Assembly: GCF_004310325.1 (NCBI RefSeq)
Contig: NZ_SIRT01000003.1
Coordinates: forward strand, 62,001-126,000
Reading direction: 5' to 3'
From: Hyunsoonleella flava
GTDB taxonomy: Bacteria > Bacteroidota > Bacteroidia > Flavobacteriales > Flavobacteriaceae
DNA length: 64,000 nucleotides
Numbering within the stretch: position 1 is the stretch's first letter; every line of letters begins with the position of its first letter. The translations under genes and the position numbers were made by a program. Shown here piece after piece: positions 56,707 to 64,000 of this stretch. The notes under the pieces were generated by a model, which had not been told where the DNA came from, did not search any database, and worked only from the letters and a program-made list of their open reading frames with translations.

Positions 56707-58575
56707 TTATAAATTCAAGTTCATACCCAAACTCACATTTCTACCTCTCGTTGTATACCCTAATATTTCAAAGTAATCTTCGTTAAAAAAATTGGTGATA
56801 TTTGCAAAAAGCTTCACCTTGTTTTTAAGCATTTTATGACTGAAATATAAATCGATTAAAGAGTAGGCACTTAAATCCTCGTTAGCAAACGTAGAGAAAT
56901 TGGTATCTGTTCGCTTTCCAACAAATTGATAACTCAATGATGCAAAGGTGTTTTCGCAAATATCATAGCCCAAACTAGCATTTGCTTTATGCTTCGGAAT
57001 TCTTAAACGCACACCGTCCTTAACTTCCGTAAATGTATAATTTGTAGAAATAGCTAAGTTTTTCACCACATCAATTTGCGCCTCAAGCTCAAATCCATGA
57101 ACAGTAGCGTCAGTAGTAGCATTTTCATAAGCTGAGGTGAATATGATGGTATGCACTTCATTTCGGTTAAAATAAACACCATTAATACGAACGCCCGTTG
57201 TTGTATTATATTCAATACCCCCTTCAATAGTAGTGTTCTCTTCTGGCTTTAAATCGGGATTTGCGCCAAAAAAACCGAACAGTTGTGACAAATTTGGTGC
57301 AATAAAGGACGTAGCATAAGATCCAAATGCCTTTACATAAGCCTCGTCAATTGAAATACTATAAGACGGATTCAAACTATACACAAAATGCGAACCATAT
57401 TCGCTATGGTTGTTCAATCGTCCACCTACGTTCATATTCAGTCCAAAATCCGAGACATATACCACATTTAAATACGGATCGGTGTTGGTAAAACTTTCTT
57501 CTTCAGCAAATAAACTATTATAGTCACCATAGTTTAAACCAACAATAGTATAAAAAGTGTCGTTAAAATTATACTTGTTAAATGCATCAACAACATAACT
57601 ATCCGCTTCATTGGTTGAGCCAAAAGCCGAAATAGTTTCCCTATCAATTTTTGTGTATGCCGCATTTACTTGAAATGTTCCATTCTTGTAGGTAAACTTT
57701 GGAGACAACCCAACTCTTTTCTGTTGCGAAATATACTCATCGTTAGTATCTGCAAATGCAAAATTTGGAGGCGGAAACCCGTCAATATCCGTTTTAAATT
57801 TATCTAAACTGGCATATGCGATCAATTCAAAATTATCACAAAACTCATAGCCTAATTTTAAGTTGGTGTTGTATCTAGAGAACGGATCTTTTTCCGCGTC
57901 TTCAGACTTGAAAGCAGACAAGCCATCTGCAAATTGGTTACCAAAACTTGCTAAGTAGGTAAATTTATCTAAAGTACCGTTTACCGAAACATTATTGGTA
58001 AAACTCGCGCCGTTATAATTTAAATCATCTTGAGTTTGATTGGTACCAACCACGGTTAAAAAATTTCCTGAGATTTTATCTTTTGAAGCCTTTTTGGTAG
58101 TAATGTTTATTACAGCCGTTGCTGCACCGTTTCCATAAAGGGTACTGGCTGCACCTTTTATAATTTCAATAGAGGCAATGGTATTTAAGTCTATCAACCT
58201 TAAATCTAATTCATTATTTACTAAGGATGGATCGTTAATTTGAACACCATCAATTAAAACTAAAACCTGTCTGTTATTTCCACCACGCACAAAACTTGAG
58301 ATATTTTGTCCTGCCACACTGCGCGTACCGTTTATTTCAATACCACTTTTGGTGTTTATTAAATCTGTAAGCGTTCTGCCTTGGTTACGCTCAATTTCAT
58401 TTTGAGAAATTTTAATAACGGTTTTTCCTGAATTTTCTCGTTTCAAGGCAAAACGAGAGTCTGAAATAACAACTTCATCAAGTTGCTCTACTTTAGTTGA
58501 ATCAGTTTGCTGCTGTGCAAAACTAAACAACGAGCATCCTAAGCATAGGACACCAAAAACATTTGTGTGTTTCAT
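56707..58575 (-). CDS. btuB: TonB-dependent vitamin B12 receptor, BtuB type
   Basis: BtuB carries cobalamin across the outer membrane with energy from TonB. The 622-residue length is that of E. coli BtuB. The signal peptide ends FSFAQ. The TonB-box-like LDEVVIS is at about residues 31-37. The plug has TLTDLINTKSGIEINGTRS, FVRGGNNRQVLVLIDGVQIND and IEIIKGAASTLYGNGAATAV (each quoted within the family pattern). The barrel ends GRNVSLGMNLNL. The cobalamin riboswitch on the same strand 240 bases upstream, and the divergent ABC importer, make the B12 ligand well supported. The PAS gene follows. Confidence 0.9.
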   Translation of the reverse strand: MKHTNVFGVLCLGCSLFSFAQQQTDSTKVEQLDEVVISDSRFALKRENSGKTVIKISQNEIERNQGRTLTDLINTKSGIEINGTRSVAGQNISSFVRGGNNRQVLVLIDGVQINDPSLVNNELDLRLIDLNTIASIEIIKGAASTLYGNGAATAVINITTKKASKDKISGNFLTVVGTNQTQDDLNYNGASFTNNVSVNGTLDKFTYLASFGNQFADGLSAFKSEDAEKDPFSRYNTNLKLGYEFCDNFELIAYASLDKFKTDIDGFPPPNFAFADTNDEYISQQKRVGLSPKFTYKNGTFQVNAAYTKIDRETISAFGSTNEADSYVVDAFNKYNFNDTFYTIVGLNYGDYNSLFAEEESFTNTDPYLNVVYVSDFGLNMNVGGRLNNHSEYGSHFVYSLNPSYSISIDEAYVKAFGSYATSFIAPNLSQLFGFFGANPDLKPEENTTIEGGIEYNTTTGVRINGVYFNRNEVHTIIFTSAYENATTDATVHGFELEAQIDVVKNLAISTNYTFTEVKDGVRLRIPKHKANASLGYDICENTFASLSYQFVGKRTDTNFSTFANEDLSAYSLIDLYFSHKMLKNKVKLFANITNFFNEDYFEILGYTTRGRNVSLGMNLNL

Positions 58576-58681
58576 TTTAATGAATAATTACTCGAGAATC
58601 GCATGGATTATCATACAATATATTATTCATAAATCGAATTAACTTAAATAAAACTATGCTTTAGTATTTATGCTTCAAAAT

Positions 58682-58710
58682 AAAAAACGCCATAGCTAAT
58701 GCTATGTCTT
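58682..58710 (-). terminator. Intrinsic terminator of the B12 riboswitch expression platform
   Basis: CATAGC and GCTATG form a six-pair stem with loop ATTA, followed on the minus strand by six Ts (58687 to 58682). It lies between the aptamer and btuB, about 107 bases before the start codon. Ligand-dependent termination is the likely mode of control. Confidence 0.75.
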
Positions 58711-58816
58711 ATTTTTCTTTTTTGCCTAAACAACAAAAATTTTAGTTTTCTTTTCAGCGAATTCAATTAATGACTAACATCAACTTTTATCCCGAAAGTT
58801 TAACTTATTTGTTTGA

Positions 58817-59046
58817 AAATGGCAGGTCTCCTGACTTGCGTCTTCATGTTGGTCTTCCCATCAAAATTGACAGTGACATTAGAAGTATAACATGAAGCTT
58901 TGTAGCTTACAGTTGCGGGAACAGTTCTGGAATTAACGATTTACGATTTACGATGTTTAAAAATTTCAACATCAAATCTTAAATCTGTAATCATAAATCA
59001 TTGCACCAGATTCCCTTTTAATTCCGCCGAAGCGGAAACCAAAATT
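58817..59046 (-). ncRNA. Cobalamin riboswitch upstream of btuB
   Basis: Read on the minus strand, the sequence has the classic elements in order. A UUCG-type hairpin (59037-59022) comes first, then AAAAGGGAA at about 59019-59011. The loop element CTGGTGCAA follows, then CCCGCAACTGTAAGC (58921 to 58907), GTCACTG (58877 to 58871) and the B12 box AAGTCAGGAGACCTGCC (58837 to 58821). It lies ahead of btuB on the same strand and is followed by an intrinsic terminator. The loop after GGTGCAA is enlarged by about 65 bases of inverted heptamer repeats (58936-59001). The exact ends are estimates. Confidence 0.93.
58936..59001. repeat. Inverted heptamer repeats inserted in the riboswitch aptamer
   Basis: On the plus strand three units ACGATTT, ACGATTT, ACGATGT (58936-58956) are followed by a 17-base spacer. 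Four units AAATCTT, AAATCTG, TAATCAT, AAATCAT (58974-59001) come next. The two arms are roughly complementary and would fold into an imperfect hairpin in the RNA. Confidence 0.7.
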
Positions 59047-59051
59047 CGATG

Positions 59052-59059
59052 CAAATATA
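59052..59059 (-). promoter_or_regulatory. -7 box of the riboswitch-btuB transcript
   Basis: TATATTTG on the minus strand fits TAnnTTTG. It ends a few bases before the predicted 5' end of the aptamer, so transcription would begin right at the riboswitch. The -33 element is not clear. Confidence 0.6.
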
Positions 59060-59090
59060 CTTTATTAAAAACAATACCTTCTTAGAAAGG

Positions 59091-59198
59091 CTACTTTTTC
59101 CTATTCAGCTTATATATAAGATAAATAAACCCTACAAGAAAATGAATTATTATAACTCCAGCTACTATATATATTGTTAAATTTGAACTGTCTCTCAT
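59091..59198 (-). CDS. Very small membrane protein (35 residues), possible gene
   Basis: An ATG at 59198 opens a 35-codon frame ending in TAG at 59091. The peptide has a short polar start (MRDSSNLT), a single hydrophobic helix (IYIVAGVIIIHFLVGFIYLI, about residues 9-28) and a basic tail (YKLNRKK). This positive-inside plan is typical of real single-span miniproteins. It lies upstream of the riboswitch promoter, on the same strand, and divergent from the ABC importer. I do not know a family for it, and chance cannot be excluded. Confidence 0.45.
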   Translation of the reverse strand: MRDSSNLTIYIVAGVIIIHFLVGFIYLIYKLNRKK

Positions 59199-59264
59199 TG
59201 TTTATTTTTTTCGAAATTAACAATGAATACCCAAATCAAACATGACATAAGTCACTTTGCTTTT

Positions 59265-60413
59265 ATGATATATAAAATTTTCATCGTTGCAACCTTTCTA
59301 AGTATTACGTCTTGTAAAGAAGACAAGGGTATTACTAGAAAACTTCCACTATCGGACGTTGAAATTGTTGATTTAAAATATGCAAAAGGGTTTTTAGTAA
59401 CTCATTTTGATAAGTACAAAGTAATTAAAGTGAATCACCCATGGCCCGATGCAAAAAAGGTGTATAAATATGTGATAATTGACAATAAAAATCTTGCTAA
59501 GACAAGTTTTATGAGTGGTGAATATGACGGTATTATTGTAACACCCATTAGTAAAATTGTTGCTACCTCCACTACGCACCTCCCAGCCCTAGAGTTATTA
59601 CAGGTTGAAAACACCTTAGTAGGTTTTCCTGGAACAGATTATGTGTCCTCGAAAAAAATACGCACTCAAATTGATAATGGAACTATTAGAGAACTAGGTA
59701 AAAACGAAAGTTTAAACACCGAAGTGTTGCTAGAATTAAATCCTGATGTCGTCGCTGGGTTTGGTATTGACGGCGGCAACCGCTCATTAGAAACCATTAG
59801 TAAATCTGGTATTCCGGTAATGTTTAATGGTGATTGGGTAGAAAGTTCCCCACTTGCTAAAGCAGAATGGATTAAGTTTTTTGGTGTACTTTACAATAAA
59901 GAAAAGGAGGCAGATTCTATTTTTAATCAAATTGAAAAAGATTATTTAGATGCTAAAATGCTAGCTCAAAATGTAACGTCAAAACCTACCGTTTTAAGTG
60001 GTGCCATGCACAACGATATTTGGTATTTACCTAATGGAACTAGTACAGAGGCGCAATTATTAAAAGATGCCAACGTCAACTATCTGTGGCAAAACACCGA
60101 GGGTGTAGGAAGCTTAAAACTAAATTTTGAATCGGTGTTTGTAAAAGCAAAAAACGCTGATATTTGGTTGAGCCCTTCAAATTATTCCACTTATGAAAAT
60201 TTAAAAAACGGTAATGAAAACCATACGTTGTTTGATGCTTTTCAAAATAAAAAAATATATACCTTTAACAAAACAACCGGGGCAACAGGAGGTGTTACCT
60301 ATTATGAATTGGGAATGACAAGACCAGATTTAGTTTTGAAGGATATTATAAAAATTTGTCACCCAGATTTACTTGAAAATTATCAACCCTATTTTTTTAA
60401 ACCTTTAGAATAA
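59265..60413 (+). CDS. btuF: ABC transporter substrate-binding lipoprotein, probably for cobalamin
   Basis: The product has 382 residues from the ATG at 59265, which gives a good lipoprotein signal (lipobox SITSC, Cys17). The start at 59223 would place 14 extra polar residues before it. It belongs to the BtuF/FepB-type binding proteins: GIIVTPISKIVATSTTHLPALELL (quoted as KIVATSTTHLPALELL), LVGFPGTDYVSS, LLELNPDVVAGFG, and the late NADIWLSPSNYST. It is followed directly by the permease gene (no gap). B12 as ligand is inferred from the divergent btuB and riboswitch; iron chelates are the alternative. Confidence 0.82.
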   Translation: MIYKIFIVATFLSITSCKEDKGITRKLPLSDVEIVDLKYAKGFLVTHFDKYKVIKVNHPWPDAKKVYKYVIIDNKNLAKTSFMSGEYDGIIVTPISKIVATSTTHLPALELLQVENTLVGFPGTDYVSSKKIRTQIDNGTIRELGKNESLNTEVLLELNPDVVAGFGIDGGNRSLETISKSGIPVMFNGDWVESSPLAKAEWIKFFGVLYNKEKEADSIFNQIEKDYLDAKMLAQNVTSKPTVLSGAMHNDIWYLPNGTSTEAQLLKDANVNYLWQNTEGVGSLKLNFESVFVKAKNADIWLSPSNYSTYENLKNGNENHTLFDAFQNKKIYTFNKTTGATGGVTYYELGMTRPDLVLKDIIKICHPDLLENYQPYFFKPLE

Positions 60414-61445
60414 TTGTCTAATCAAAACACATATCGCACTGCTTTTGGTTGGCTTATTCTGGCATTGATAATTTGTTTTTTATTAAATATCAGCCTTGGG
60501 TCTGTATCTATTCCTTTAAAAGACATTTTTAATAGCCTTATCGGAAAGAATGTTGAGCAAGAGTCGTGGCAATTTATTATTCAAAATTACCGACTTCCAA
60601 AAGCCCTAACAGCGATAATAGTAGGTTCTGGTTTGGGCATTTCTGGTCTGCTCATGCAAACCTTATTTAGAAATCCACTTGCAGGCCCTTTTGTTCTGGG
60701 CATAAGTTCTGGTGCAAGTTTAGGGGTAGCCTTAGTAATTTTGGGCTCAGGCGTTATAGGGGGTGTTTTAGCTTCAGCATTTCAATCAAAATGGGGAATC
60801 GTATTAGCCGCTAGTTTAGGTAGTTTTTTAGTGTTATTAGCTGTATTAATTGTATCCATAAAAGTTAGGGATACCATGGCTATTTTAATTATAGGATTAA
60901 TGTTTGCCAGCATAACAGCTGCCATAGTAAGTGTTCTCTCATACTTCGGTTCAGCCGAACAATTACAACAGTACATTTTCTGGGGTTTTGGCAGTTTAGG
61001 CAACCTGTCTTGGGACGAGCTTTTTATTTTACTGCTGATGTACGGAATAGGCATTTTTCTTGGAATCATTTCCATAAAATCATTAAACACACTACTCCTA
61101 GGAGAAAATTATGCTAAAAGTTTAGGGGTAAATATTAAAAAAAGTAGGTTTATTATAATTATTACTACAAGTTTACTAGCTGGCAGTATTACCGCTTTTA
61201 CTGGCCCAATAGCTTTTATTGGTTTAGCCATACCCCATATCACCAGACAAATATTTAATACATCTAATCATAGGATTTTATTGCCTGCAGTTTTCTTATC
61301 TGGCGCAATAGTGATGCTATTATGCGATAGTGTCTCACAGCTACCAAACAGTGATTATACATTGCCTATTAACGCTATCACCGCATTGGTAGGCGCCCCA
61401 GTGGTAATATGGTTATTAGTTAGAAAACGAAAAATGGTATTTTAA
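60414..61445 (+). CDS. btuC: FecCD/BtuC-type ABC transporter permease
   Basis: A 343-residue polytopic membrane protein starting at a TTG that abuts the stop of the binding-protein gene. About ten membrane helices are visible. Family marks are NYRLPKALTAIIVGSGLGISG, QTLFRNPLAGPFVLGISSGASLG (core NPLAGPFVLGISSGASLG), IIGLMFASITAAI, FWGFGSLGNLSWDE and GPIAFIGLAIPHITR, the last being the ATPase-contact loop. With the genes on each side it forms a complete importer of the vitamin B12 / siderophore class. Confidence 0.88.
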   Translation: MSNQNTYRTAFGWLILALIICFLLNISLGSVSIPLKDIFNSLIGKNVEQESWQFIIQNYRLPKALTAIIVGSGLGISGLLMQTLFRNPLAGPFVLGISSGASLGVALVILGSGVIGGVLASAFQSKWGIVLAASLGSFLVLLAVLIVSIKVRDTMAILIIGLMFASITAAIVSVLSYFGSAEQLQQYIFWGFGSLGNLSWDELFILLLMYGIGIFLGIISIKSLNTLLLGENYAKSLGVNIKKSRFIIIITTSLLAGSITAFTGPIAFIGLAIPHITRQIFNTSNHRILLPAVFLSGAIVMLLCDSVSQLPNSDYTLPINAITALVGAPVVIWLLVRKRKMVF

Positions 61446-62239
61446 TGAAAAGTGAAACAAAAAATATCATTCTTAAAACTGAAAACCTGTCTATTGGATA
61501 TACTTCAAAAAAAGACAACATTGTTGTGGCTTCAAACATAAATGTAGCGTTGGAAAAGGGAAAGCTAATAGGATTGATTGGTGCCAATGGCATTGGAAAA
61601 TCTACATTATTACGAACTTTAACCAAGGTACAATCACCCCTGAAAGGAGCGATTTATATTAATGATACCGAATTGAAAGACTTCTCCTCTGTTGACTTAG
61701 CTAAGGCATTGAGTTTGGTTTTAACCGAGCCAGTTGCTGCAAAGAATTTATCAGTATTGGAGCTTGTTGCCCTTGGGCGTCAGCCTTATACAAATTGGAT
61801 TGGTAATCTTTCAAAAGCCGATATAGAGATTACTGAACGTGCTATTTCACAGGTAAACATTAACCATTTAAAGCATAAAAAGTGTTTTGAACTAAGCGAT
61901 GGACAATTACAAAACGTGATGATAGCCAGAGCTTTAGCGCAGGACACAGATTTAATTATTTTGGATGAACCTACCACGCATCTGGACATGTACCATAAAG
62001 CCTATATTTTAAAATTACTTCAAGAATTAGCTAAGGATACGGGCAAAACTATCTTATTTTCATCTCATGAAATCGATTTAGCCATTCAACTATGTGATGC
62101 ACTAATTGTGATGACTGAAAACGAAGTTGTTACAGATGAACCTTGTAACCTGATTACAAAAGGCACTTTTGAAAAACTATTCCCAAAGGATTTGATTGCG
62201 TTTGATGAAGCTACAGGAAGTTTTCGAGTGAAAAAGTAG
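61445..62239 (+). CDS. btuD: ABC transporter ATPase of the B12/siderophore class
   Basis: A 264-residue ATPase whose ATG overlaps the stop of the permease gene (TAATG). Walker A is GANGIGKST (about residues 43-51). The Q-loop region is SLVLTEPVAAKNLSVLELVALGR (core LSVLELVALGRQPY), the signature LSDGQLQ stands for LSGGQ, Walker B is LIILDEPTTHLD, and the H-loop is FSSHE. It closes the btuFCD run. The second Gly of the signature is Asp-Gly shifted (ELSDGQLQN), as in many family members. Confidence 0.9.
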   Translation: MKSETKNIILKTENLSIGYTSKKDNIVVASNINVALEKGKLIGLIGANGIGKSTLLRTLTKVQSPLKGAIYINDTELKDFSSVDLAKALSLVLTEPVAAKNLSVLELVALGRQPYTNWIGNLSKADIEITERAISQVNINHLKHKKCFELSDGQLQNVMIARALAQDTDLIILDEPTTHLDMYHKAYILKLLQELAKDTGKTILFSSHEIDLAIQLCDALIVMTENEVVTDEPCNLITKGTFEKLFPKDLIAFDEATGSFRVKK

Positions 62240-62242
62240 TTT

Positions 62243-62327
62243 CCAGTCGCAGTCACAGTATTCAGTACTCTTAAAATATAACCTTGCTACTTTTTGGAAT
62301 TTGGTTTTTGTTATTTGATATTTGTTA
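62243..62327. repeat. Two decayed short-period repeats between btuD and rmuC
   Basis: At 62243-62270, AGT recurs at 62245, 62251, 62257 and 62264 (steps of 6, 6, 7). At 62293-62327 five units of seven read TTTGGAA, TTTGGTT, TTTGTTA, TTTGATA, TTTGTTA. The second tract ends one base before the likely rmuC start codon. Confidence 0.65.
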
Positions 62328-62328
62328 T

Positions 62329-63648
62329 ATGAACGATAATTTAATAATAATTCTCGCTGCCTTAGTCTTTGCAGGAATCGGTTTCTTCTTAGGAAATTAC
62401 TTTTCGAAGTTGAAAAACAAAAGTGAACAGAGCACCTTAGAGGAACGTCAAAACCAAATGCAGCGTACCATTGAGGAGCTAAAACAAAACCTAAGCAAGA
62501 TAGAAGGTGAACGCGAGGAAATTCGTCGAGAAAAGGAGTTGTTAAATACCGAATTAGCTAGAAAGAATTCTGAATATGAAAATCTGCAAGAGTTAAACTT
62601 AAAGCGGGACAAAGAGCTAGAACAGCGTCAAGAACAACTGCGTAAAGATTTTGAATTATTAGCCAATAAAATACTTGAAGAAAAGTCAAATAAATTCACA
62701 GAGCAGAATAAAGAAAATATCAAGAATATTTTAAATCCGCTTCAAGAAAAAATCCAAGGATTTGAGAAAAAAGTAGAAGCTTCACAAAAGGAAAGTATCA
62801 GCATGCATTCTGCTTTAAAAGAGCAGTTATTAGGTTTAAAAGACCTTAATCAACAAATGACTAAAGAGGCTACCAATTTAACTAGAGCTTTAAAAGGCGA
62901 TAGTAAAATGCAAGGAAATTGGGGCGAGTTGGTTTTGGAGCGAGTACTTGAAAAATCAGGTTTAGAAAAAGACCGTGAGTATTTTGTGCAACAAAGTTTT
63001 ACTCGTGACGATAACTCGCGGGTGATGCCGGATGTGGTGTTGCATTTACCTGATGGTAAGAAAATGATAATTGATTCAAAAGTATCCTTAACGGATTACG
63101 AACGTATGGTAAATGCAGATGAGGACGACAGACCTCAATTTCTAAAAGCCCATGTAAATTCCATAAGAAAGCATGTAGAGCAGCTATCTGCTAAAAATTA
63201 TCAGGATTTATACGATATTGAATCGCCTGATTTTGTATTACTTTTTATTCCCATAGAGCCAGCGTTTGCCGTGGTTGTCAATGAGGACAATAGCATTTAC
63301 AATAAAGCTTTTGAAAAGAATATTGTAATTGTGACACCTTCTACCCTTCTGGCTACGTTGCGTACCATTGATACCATGTGGAATAATGAAAAACAGCAAC
63401 GTAATGCTATAGAAATAGCACGACAAGCTGGTGCGCTTTACGACAAGTTTGAAGGCTTGGTAAAAGATTTAACTGGCGTTGGCAAAAAGATTGATGCAGC
63501 AAAAACCGATTATTCTGCGGCTATGAATAAACTAGTTGATGGTAGAGGCAACCTCATCACTAGCGTTGAAAAGCTTAAAAAAATGGGCGCAAAAGCTAAA
63601 AAATCATTACCTGAAGCTATTATAAAACGTGCCGAAGAGGACGAATAA
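62329..63648 (+). CDS. rmuC: DNA recombination protein RmuC
   Basis: The 439-residue protein starts at the ATG at 62329. An upstream in-frame start lies within the heptamer repeat tract and is unlikely. A membrane helix (about residues 4-22, LIIILAALVFAGIGFFLG) is followed by a long coiled coil (about 30-185) rich in Glu, Lys and Gln. The RmuC nuclease-like domain comes next: MQGNWGELVLERVLEKSGL, VMPDVVLHLPDGKKMIIDSKVSL (core PDVVLHLPDG and IDSKVSL), FVLLFIPIEPAF and TPSTLLATLRTI. RmuC limits DNA inversions in E. coli. Confidence 0.93.
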   Translation: MNDNLIIILAALVFAGIGFFLGNYFSKLKNKSEQSTLEERQNQMQRTIEELKQNLSKIEGEREEIRREKELLNTELARKNSEYENLQELNLKRDKELEQRQEQLRKDFELLANKILEEKSNKFTEQNKENIKNILNPLQEKIQGFEKKVEASQKESISMHSALKEQLLGLKDLNQQMTKEATNLTRALKGDSKMQGNWGELVLERVLEKSGLEKDREYFVQQSFTRDDNSRVMPDVVLHLPDGKKMIIDSKVSLTDYERMVNADEDDRPQFLKAHVNSIRKHVEQLSAKNYQDLYDIESPDFVLLFIPIEPAFAVVVNEDNSIYNKAFEKNIVIVTPSTLLATLRTIDTMWNNEKQQRNAIEIARQAGALYDKFEGLVKDLTGVGKKIDAAKTDYSAAMNKLVDGRGNLITSVEKLKKMGAKAKKSLPEAIIKRAEEDE

Positions 63649-63680
63649 TTTGTTTATCATCTAAAAACGTGATATATTTG
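63649..63680 (+). promoter_or_regulatory. Near-perfect Bacteroidota promoter of the SatD-like gene
   Basis: TTTG at 63649-63652, a 20-base spacer and TATATTTG at 63673-63680 match TTTG / TAnnTTTG. The expected start point, about 7 bases on, falls within the first palindrome of the operator array. Confidence 0.75.
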
Positions 63681-63683
63681 ATT

Positions 63684-63757
63684 ATTCCATAATTAAGGAA
63701 TAATTATATTTATTCCATTTTAAAGGAATTTTATATATTATTCTATTTAAACGGAAT
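63684..63757 (+). promoter_or_regulatory. Array of three 18-bp palindromes with 28-base period (operator array)
   Basis: Three sites ATTCC-N8-GGAAT type lie at 63684-63701 (ATTCCATAATTAAGGAAT), 63712-63729 (ATTCCATTTTAAAGGAAT) and 63740-63757 (ATTCTATTTAAACGGAAT). Start-to-start spacing is 28 in both cases. The array spans exactly from the predicted transcription start to 3 bases before the ATG. It is best read as a set of repressor sites or RNA hairpins. Confidence 0.75.
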
Positions 63758-63760
63758 ATT

Positions 63761-64000
63761 ATGACAACAAGCGTTATTACTGGTGATATTATAAGGTCGA
63801 ATAAATTTAAAAACCCAAAAGTTTGGTTAGATCCTTTAAAAAAGGCGCTAATAAAAACAGAAACAGACCAAAAATATTGGGAAATTTTTCGTGGAGACAG
63901 TTTTCAAATCGAAGTGCGCGATAATCAAAAAGCATTTCTTACAGCCATATATATCAAGGCATGCATAAAATCAGTAAAAGGTTTAGATGTCCGTATGGCT
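63761..64000 (+). CDS. SatD-like protein, N-terminal part (cut by window end)
   Basis: Eighty codons are visible from the ATG at 63761. The N-terminus MTTSVITGDIIRSN and the stretch YWEIFRGDSFQIEV, followed by FLTAIYIKACIK, resemble the SatD family. SatD was named in Streptococcus for acid tolerance, and flavobacterial members often stand before a DUF3307 membrane protein. The molecular role is not known. The strong promoter and the three-site palindromic array directly ahead show that the gene is tightly regulated, possibly by its own product. The stop is outside the window. Confidence 0.65.
   Translation, partial: MTTSVITGDIIRSNKFKNPKVWLDPLKKALIKTETDQKYWEIFRGDSFQIEVRDNQKAFLTAIYIKACIKSVKGLDVRMA

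Follow-up and report, generated by a model that had tools for sequence, protein, structure and literature searches.

The satD-like gene of Hyunsoonleella flava, which begins close to the 3′ end of the window (the whole stretch of 64,000 nucleotides that was analysed), is preceded by an array of four 20-bp palindromes arranged at a step of exactly 28 bp. Comparison of such arrays with the SatD proteins encoded behind them predicts with good confidence that SatD autoregulates the satD-DUF3307 operon through array binding, most likely as a repressor. Binding of SatD to the array is the firmest part of this prediction and is very probable, chiefly because the arm letters of the operators follow the recognition helix of SatD. 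Repression of its own operon by SatD is probable, and the palm domain of SatD may well place the protein under ligand control. The features of the window on which the analysis centers are listed in Table 1.

Table 1. Features at the satD end of the window.
Feature	Position	Strand	Description
rmuC, upstream neighbour outside the system	62284–63648	+	PF02646, E 3.5e-106; stop codon (63646–63648) abuts the promoter
sigma-ABfr type promoter	63649–63680	+	-33 TTTG (63649–63652), 20-bp spacer, -7 TATATTTG (63673–63680)
operator 1	63655–63674	.	TATCATCTAAAAACGTGATA; within the promoter spacer; ATCAY/RTGAT arm type, mismatched to the helix class of the window SatD
operator 2	63683–63702	.	TATTCCATAATTAAGGAATA; cognate arm type
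operator 3	63711–63730	.	TATTCCATTTTAAAGGAATT; cognate arm type
operator 4	63739–63758	.	TATTCTATTTAAACGGAATA; cognate arm type, with a single mismatch between the arms; ATG 2 bases further on
satD-like gene	63761–64000, continues past the window end	+	212 aa, complete in L002:362-1000; palm and C-terminal HTH

Three of the four operators in the window have arms of the TATTCC-N8-GGAATA type, and operator 1 has TATCAT-N8-GTGATA arms. The inner 18 bases of operators 2 and 3 are exact copies of ATTCC-N8-GGAAT (63684–63701 and 63712–63729), and those of operator 4 are the one-mismatch form ATTCTATTTAAACGGAAT (63740–63757). An earlier note, made from the window sequence, had described three palindromes with a 28-base step, the last of which ends 3 bases before the ATG. 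These three exist, and the distance holds for the inner 18-mer of operator 4, which ends at 63757 in front of the ATG at 63761; the count was too low, and the palindrome at 63655–63674 had been missed. The four-palindrome chain scores 21.0, the highest value for a 28-step chain on the + strand of the window; the next unrelated chain there scores 11.0. When the upstream region of 230 bp was resampled 20,000 times with a first-order Markov model, the chain score was never matched (maximum 16.4). At the other steps from 21 to 40, no chain in the window scores above 15.9. The number of single sites in the whole window, counted with one mismatch, is unremarkable (5 versus 2.54 expected, with at least 5 in 13 of 100 shuffles). 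A general repeat finder reported no direct or inverted repeat within 63400–64000, a null result that is uninformative either way because the 9 exact bases of its seed are longer than the palindrome arms. Further upstream, positions 56707–62239 contain a putative TonB-type receptor gene on the - strand, followed on the + strand by genes for the substrate-binding protein, permease and ATPase of an ABC importer, all named by sequence appearance.

The protein encoded behind the array belongs to the SatD family. Its residues 6–185 match PF16264 with 31 bits (cut-off, 29), and the same profile is matched by 68 of 85 homologues at E 0.01. Matches below the cut-off to sigma-70 region 4 and to other HTH models are located at residues ∼164–185. 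NCBIfam gives just matches in the HTH region, all under the cut-off, and PADLOC gives a weak HTH match alone (E 0.0013). An AlphaFold2 model of SatD that was built with the 85 homologues (pLDDT 97.8, pTM 0.93) predicts a βαββαβ palm (approximately residues 1–125) that is followed by helices. In the model, the helices of residues 164–171 and 175–184 form an HTH pair, with residues 175–184 as the predicted recognition helix. A Foldseek search with the SatD model found two matches at E ≤ 0.001, the best of which is a diguanylate cyclase GGEEF domain (E 7.9e-4). The 50 best rows listed by VIA-align have Z values of 8.6–9.8 over 113–148 residues (best Z 9.8, with an rmsd of 3.1 over 113 aligned residues), on a scale where a best Z of 7–8 is common without true kinship. 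The D9 and D46 residues are invariant in all 85 SatD sequences. In the AlphaFold2 model, D9 is located in the strand of residues 2–11, and D46 is located between the strands of residues 40–43 and 47–52; by topology rather than by superposition, the two residues would correspond to the metal-holding acids of cyclase-type palms.

The satD gene is followed on the same strand by a DUF3307 gene in 147 of 149 loci, and among 157 loci, there are 84 in which the beginning of DUF3307, at its start codon, and the end of satD share 4 nt. The DUF3307 protein is multi-helical and contains eight residues (H10, D14, H39, H67, D71, D90, Q91 and H94) that are invariant in 77 sequences. A representative gene on the + strand (L032:2136-2834) encodes the motifs HxxxD, H, HxxxD and DQxxH and a conserved C-terminal half. 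A search with a DUF3307 model (pLDDT 89.1) found no useful fold in the PDB (best Foldseek E 1.3), and its sequence has no PDB match at E 1. No mechanism for the SatD family or DUF3307 was found in the accessible full-text literature, which covers subscription papers thinly and has preprints outside its scope; the few matching papers concern annotation, streptococci or unrelated subjects. A paper on DUF2652 cyclase-like proteins (PMC4886424) does not use the terms 'SatD' or 'DUF3307' in its main text.

Arrays upstream of satD are conserved. Within the family, 149 genomes were searched and satD was found in 87; one locus from each of the 87 genomes was collected, of which 85 were usable (L104 and L117 were left out for want of a usable start). 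A phylum sample was derived from 95 listed places, 70 of which made loci; one of these (L055) was already in the first set, and the removal of 5 duplicates from the other 69 left 64 loci. The remaining 25 places include the weakest matches. A held-out set of 73 named loci was obtained by removal of 7 duplicates from the 80 top-ranking stretches among 577 related ones; it includes Mariniflexile, Winogradskyella, Gelidibacter, Pedobacter, Chitinophaga, Algoriphagus and Flavobacterium and has clades in common with the first sets. Array scores were judged against first-order Markov resampling, not against an exact shuffle. With a first motif-free score that has no TAT..ATA anchor, 28- or 29-step chains above the 99% null were observed in 60 of the 85 family upstream regions and in 4 of 424 controls. 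A second score, with the outer TAT..ATA as its anchor, which was chosen after the family sequences had been viewed and is thus applied here to the data that shaped it, found arrays in 81 of 85 family upstream regions and in 1 of 424 controls from the same loci. With both score and threshold fixed beforehand, arrays were found in 70 of the 73 held-out loci. The phylum sample contains arrays at 40 of 64 loci, and the family and phylum samples together contain them at 121 of 149. Most of the 28 satD genes scored as lacking an array (24) come from the phylum sample, whose reach is wider, and some satD genes without a scored array carry arrays with other outer letters (e.g. L161).

A step of 29 bp occurs mostly in one sub-group (L102-L118) and also in L149, L153, L155, L157, L160 and L174. 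The L160 chain contains six units, the largest number among the SatD chains observed. Distant SatD proteins of one family (f17, L176-L182) have an HTH region with additional residues and are encoded without a convincing upstream array.

The promoter of the window is in register with the array. Bacteroidota promoters have the -33/-7 consensus TTTG/TANNTTTG, and transcription starts 4–5 nt past the -7 box, as described in the accessible part of PMC6847099; for this reason, transcription in the window is expected to start at approximately 63685. The -7 box TATATTTG is the sole TAnnTTTG on the + strand from window position 62000 to the ATG. The promoter TTTG-N20-TATATTTG that the earlier note had placed in front of the first palindrome is present, but its spacer is occupied by operator 1. 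A general sigma-70 scan returned promoter-like sites at shuffle level and no terminator, as is expected for this phylum. Among the 121 array regions, TAnnTTTG was found in 64, with 101 matches in total. Fifty-three of these matches start exactly at the TA that closes an operator slot, and a further 14 start two bases earlier. For comparison, 19 of 84 TAnnTTTA matches start at that slot position, and the 18 TAnnTTTC matches have no peak. The TAnnTTTA share arises because the operators themselves end in ATA, and this property accounts for part of the TAnnTTTG register as well. The -33 TTTG is weakly visible across the same array set. The TTTG-N20-TATATTTG distance is 28 bp, and a promoter in this register therefore has its spacer filled by an operator. 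Moreover, since the operator step equals the -33/-7 distance, an array can shift by one unit relative to the promoter with its phase kept.

The proposed mechanism builds on the computed array, promoter register, helix–operator co-variation, domain folds and operon, from which we infer dimeric binding, repression, cooperativity and ligand control. A SatD dimer would read each 20-bp palindrome, with residue 180, aided by residues 176 and 177, selecting the variable arm letters. Several SatD dimers would coat the run of operators, whose 28-bp step is the -33 to -7 distance of a Bacteroidota promoter. Both in the window and in the register found most often, the promoter spacer would be occupied by one operator with the -7 box adjoining it. 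Coating of the promoter spacer by SatD would most likely turn off satD-DUF3307, and SatD would let go once its palm domain binds or turns over a ligand. Among the observations that run counter to the model are the mismatch between operator 1 of the window, the unit in the promoter spacer, and the class of its own SatD, the non-cognate ATG-proximal block of L197, the correlation of residue 194 and the 28 satD genes that lack a scored array.

The array could also be bound by SatD mainly for activation or as an assembly platform, through promoter re-phasing or oligomer nucleation. Activators of the MerR type bind in the promoter spacer, and the single operator within the -33/-7 spacer resembles their sites. 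This reading also draws on the distribution of operators around the in-register -7 boxes (n = 69, with several in some arrays), which have 0, 1, 2, 3 and 4 detected downstream operators in 35, 21, 8, 4 and 1 cases, respectively. Thus, 35 of the 69 boxes are without a detected downstream operator, and many arrays end before the last -7 box. However, the promoter is overlapped by operators, and so is the expected leader of the window, where three operators lie downstream of the -7 box. HipB, the closest analogue known, is a repressor according to the accessible part of PMC3376134. Activation or assembly as the main role of the bound array is unlikely, and repression by SatD remains the preferred reading.

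The assignment of SatD as the protein that binds the array is derived from co-variation of the operators with the SatD sequence. The operator arms differ between species and include TATTCC, TATCAC, TATCG, TATCTG, TATTAG, TATTACC, TATATGC and TATAAG types. In a scan of 205 SatD columns, with near-invariant columns skipped, each column was compared with the operator distance between species after removal of the palm-domain distance. Residue 180 is the top predictor of the operator arms (partial r 0.484), followed by residues 194 (0.313), 177 (0.264) and 176 (0.179), of which residue 194 is located outside the recognition helix. The best 7-residue window of SatD spans residues 174–180 (0.369), and the overlapping residues 175–181 score 0.305, compared with a maximum of 0.108 over 1000 row permutations. 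An acidic residue 180 (E or D) pairs with C at operator position 4 (29 of 30), a basic one (K or R) with C at position 6 (26 of 27), and Q or L with A at position 5 (42 of 44). The SatD protein of the window contains E176, A177 and K180 and falls into the TATTCC class, the type of three of its four operators.

Shared descent was stripped from these associations by the use of non-overlapping paths on the palm-domain tree as independent pairs. Among 12 pairs that differ in an acidic residue 180, 10 are for the rule, 0 are against it and 2 are uninformative (p 0.002). The corresponding numbers for a basic residue 180 are 12, 0 and 2 of 14 pairs (p 0.0005), and those for Q or L are 5, 0 and 6 of 11, which is not significant (p 0.06). 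In the held-out loci, the acidic rule holds in 21 of 21 cases and the basic rule in 32 of 32, with the same letters found outside their own classes in 21 of 49 (C at position 4) and 16 of 38 cases (C at position 6); none of the held-out loci has Q or L at residue 180. S or T at residue 177 accompanies G at position 5 in 20 of 25 held-out loci, compared with 0 of 45 otherwise. An operator array bound by the SatD-like protein itself had been proposed in the earlier note, and the conservation of the arrays and the helix–operator co-variation strongly support it as a sequence-based prediction. The comparison of satD upstream regions within the family, in line with a check suggested in the note, reveals arrays that are kept (81 of 85) with arm letters that vary between species.

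Two operator types are mixed, in blocks, in 13 of 147 arrays that have at least two clear units (the window, L034, L043, L066, L188, L196, L197, L199, L210, L213, L225, L255 and L263), where arrays that mix CG and CT half-sites alone were not scored as mixed. As judged by eye, the ATG-proximal block fits residue 180 in 12 of the 13, including the window, and the other block is upstream; for three of these 12 (L034, L043 and L213), the judgement leans on what is expected when residue 180 is small or of another kind, an expectation that is less firm. L197 is reversed, with an ATG-proximal block of the non-cognate type, and L203, outside the 13, resembles it under looser operator classes. Both L197 and L203 encode an N176 and K180 helix that is intermediate between the TATCAC and TATTCC classes, and both operator types occur in their arrays. 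By inference, the upstream block is a relic of an earlier specificity or of an earlier satD gene at the site.

Mixed arrays also bear on the view that a regulator other than SatD binds the array. A second binding protein may read the other block, and the window has one such unit. The arms nevertheless follow the SatD helix over independent switches and in held-out loci, and, among the matches listed in a genome-wide scan, runs of sites occur at satD alone. Binding of the array by another regulator is accordingly quite improbable, and SatD is retained as its predicted reader. The scan counted one-mismatch sites in eight genomes of the TATTCC type and six of the TATCAC type. These sites are near parity with a reversed control in the window's genome (28 versus 16), G028 (7 versus 7) and G121 (12 versus 12) and exceed it in G085 (14 versus 4) and G013 (15 versus 2). 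The exact 18-base pattern occurs at 12 places in the window's genome, compared with 3 for the reversed control. The matches listed, inspected by eye, cover 5 of the 8 and 5 of the 6 genomes, that is, all except G028, G132, G069 and G071, and comprise 24 of the 28 for the window's genome, on the + strand. Among them, no second 28-step run was observed outside satD. The genome-wide motif search that the earlier note had suggested thus finds scattered single sites, without a second 28-step cluster among the matches listed. Single well-formed operator-like sites off the array are located at G008:C83:48592-48611 and G019:C1:714409-714428 and are possible second targets.

The earlier note had also considered a chain of RNA hairpins that covers the ribosome site; in this reading, hairpins in the leader would govern translation. 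The arms of each palindrome are complementary, three palindromes of the window lie downstream of the promoter, and the minimum free energy of the leader is lower than the shuffle mean (-16.4 versus -11.91). However, the fold has a z value of only -1.64 and is equalled by 17 of 200 shuffles, and the four single stems of the window are weak (-2.1 to -4.5 kcal/mol). At arm positions 4–7 of 414 operator units, G-T mismatches (109) are not in excess of A-C mismatches (127), contrary to what G-U pairing in RNA would lead one to see. In 35 of the 69 in-register -7 boxes, the detected operators lie upstream and hence are untranscribed from that box. Rfam has no family at gathering score in 63400–64000, and the arm letters track the HTH rather than a constant structure. 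The hairpin reading was rejected on the basis of the mismatch types, the weak fold and the upstream position of operators, and its probability is very small. A chance origin of the array from low-complexity, AT-rich repeats, which the AT-rich region, the commonness of single palindromes (5 versus 2.54 expected) and the empty repeat-finder output would suit, has a negligible probability and is refuted by conservation in 81 of 85 orthologues, along with the absence of a matching score among 20,000 resamplings.

Autoregulation of satD-DUF3307 by SatD would provide a common family with a concrete mechanism and named reading residues, those of a regulator that controls itself by recognition of its own promoter. 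The question of SatD function would narrow to one ligand and one operon, satD-DUF3307. Moreover, the natural helix–operator pairs are material for a protein–DNA recognition code and for orthogonal Bacteroidota regulators. In a broader and tentative picture, which we consider possible rather than probable, SatD would be a one-component regulator that is widespread among Bacteroidota; its palm, which would bind or make nucleotides, would control how HTH dimers load onto an array whose step matches the -33/-7 distance. Specificity would be switched by replacement of the ATG-proximal block with old blocks left upstream, and each species would maintain an insulated, orthogonal copy with a two- to three-residue code.

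The predicted features of SatD were compared with those of known systems. The palm of the SatD model resembles the GGDEF, class III nucleotidyl cyclase and Cas10 palms, and its listed VIA-align relatives include GTP cyclohydrolase III, DosC, mycobacterial cyclases and Cmr2. The SatD palm differs from these cyclase-type palms in its fusion to an HTH and has a sequence identity of 8–17% to them in the listed rows. As described in the accessible part of PMC10653801, Legionella HipBST resembles the SatD system in its three evenly spaced inverted-repeat operators, which vary from unit to unit, but has 53-bp gaps between operators and carries HipS and HipT as separate proteins.

The closest likeness is to E. 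coli hipBA, in which an autoregulated operon is preceded by four operators of 18 bp, each with N8 between arms of 5 bp. In the E. coli record, TATCC-N8-GGATA occurs in the hipBA promoter at -134, -106, -67 and -39 relative to the start of hipB as annotated. The resulting steps are 28, 39 and 28 bp, and the 28-bp step of the SatD arrays is thus shared by two of the three intervals. According to the accessible part of PMC3376134, HipB represses hipBA and binds the four operators cooperatively, and the O1O2 oligonucleotide contains an AT-rich 10-bp linker; general background on HipB is given in the accessible part of PMC8262856. The presence of 28-bp steps in hipBA together with cooperative HipB indicates that a 28-bp spacing of bound dimers need not be strange. 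The earlier note was correct on the 28-base step, and its view of this step as unusual for cooperative repressors is weakened. HipB is also the best match of the SatD profile among PDB sequences, albeit a weak one (E 0.011, residues 147–182), and has an HTH profile match of 25.4 bits in a search of one sequence.

SatD differs from HipB in several respects. HipB is a small antitoxin that is paired with the kinase HipA, whereas SatD combines its HTH with a cyclase-like palm in one protein and shares its operon with DUF3307 (147 of 149 loci) rather than with a HipA-like kinase. The window operators deviate from the HipB consensus TATCC-N8-GGATA. Across species, the SatD operator letters vary widely, and the steps are regular at 28 or 29 bp, in contrast to the 28, 39 and 28 bp of hipBA. 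By analogy, SatD would act like HipB; yet it is not classed as HipB, because its operators depart from the HipB consensus and its partner is not a kinase. The features particular to SatD are its fused palm domain, its DUF3307 partner and the species-by-species change of its operator letters.
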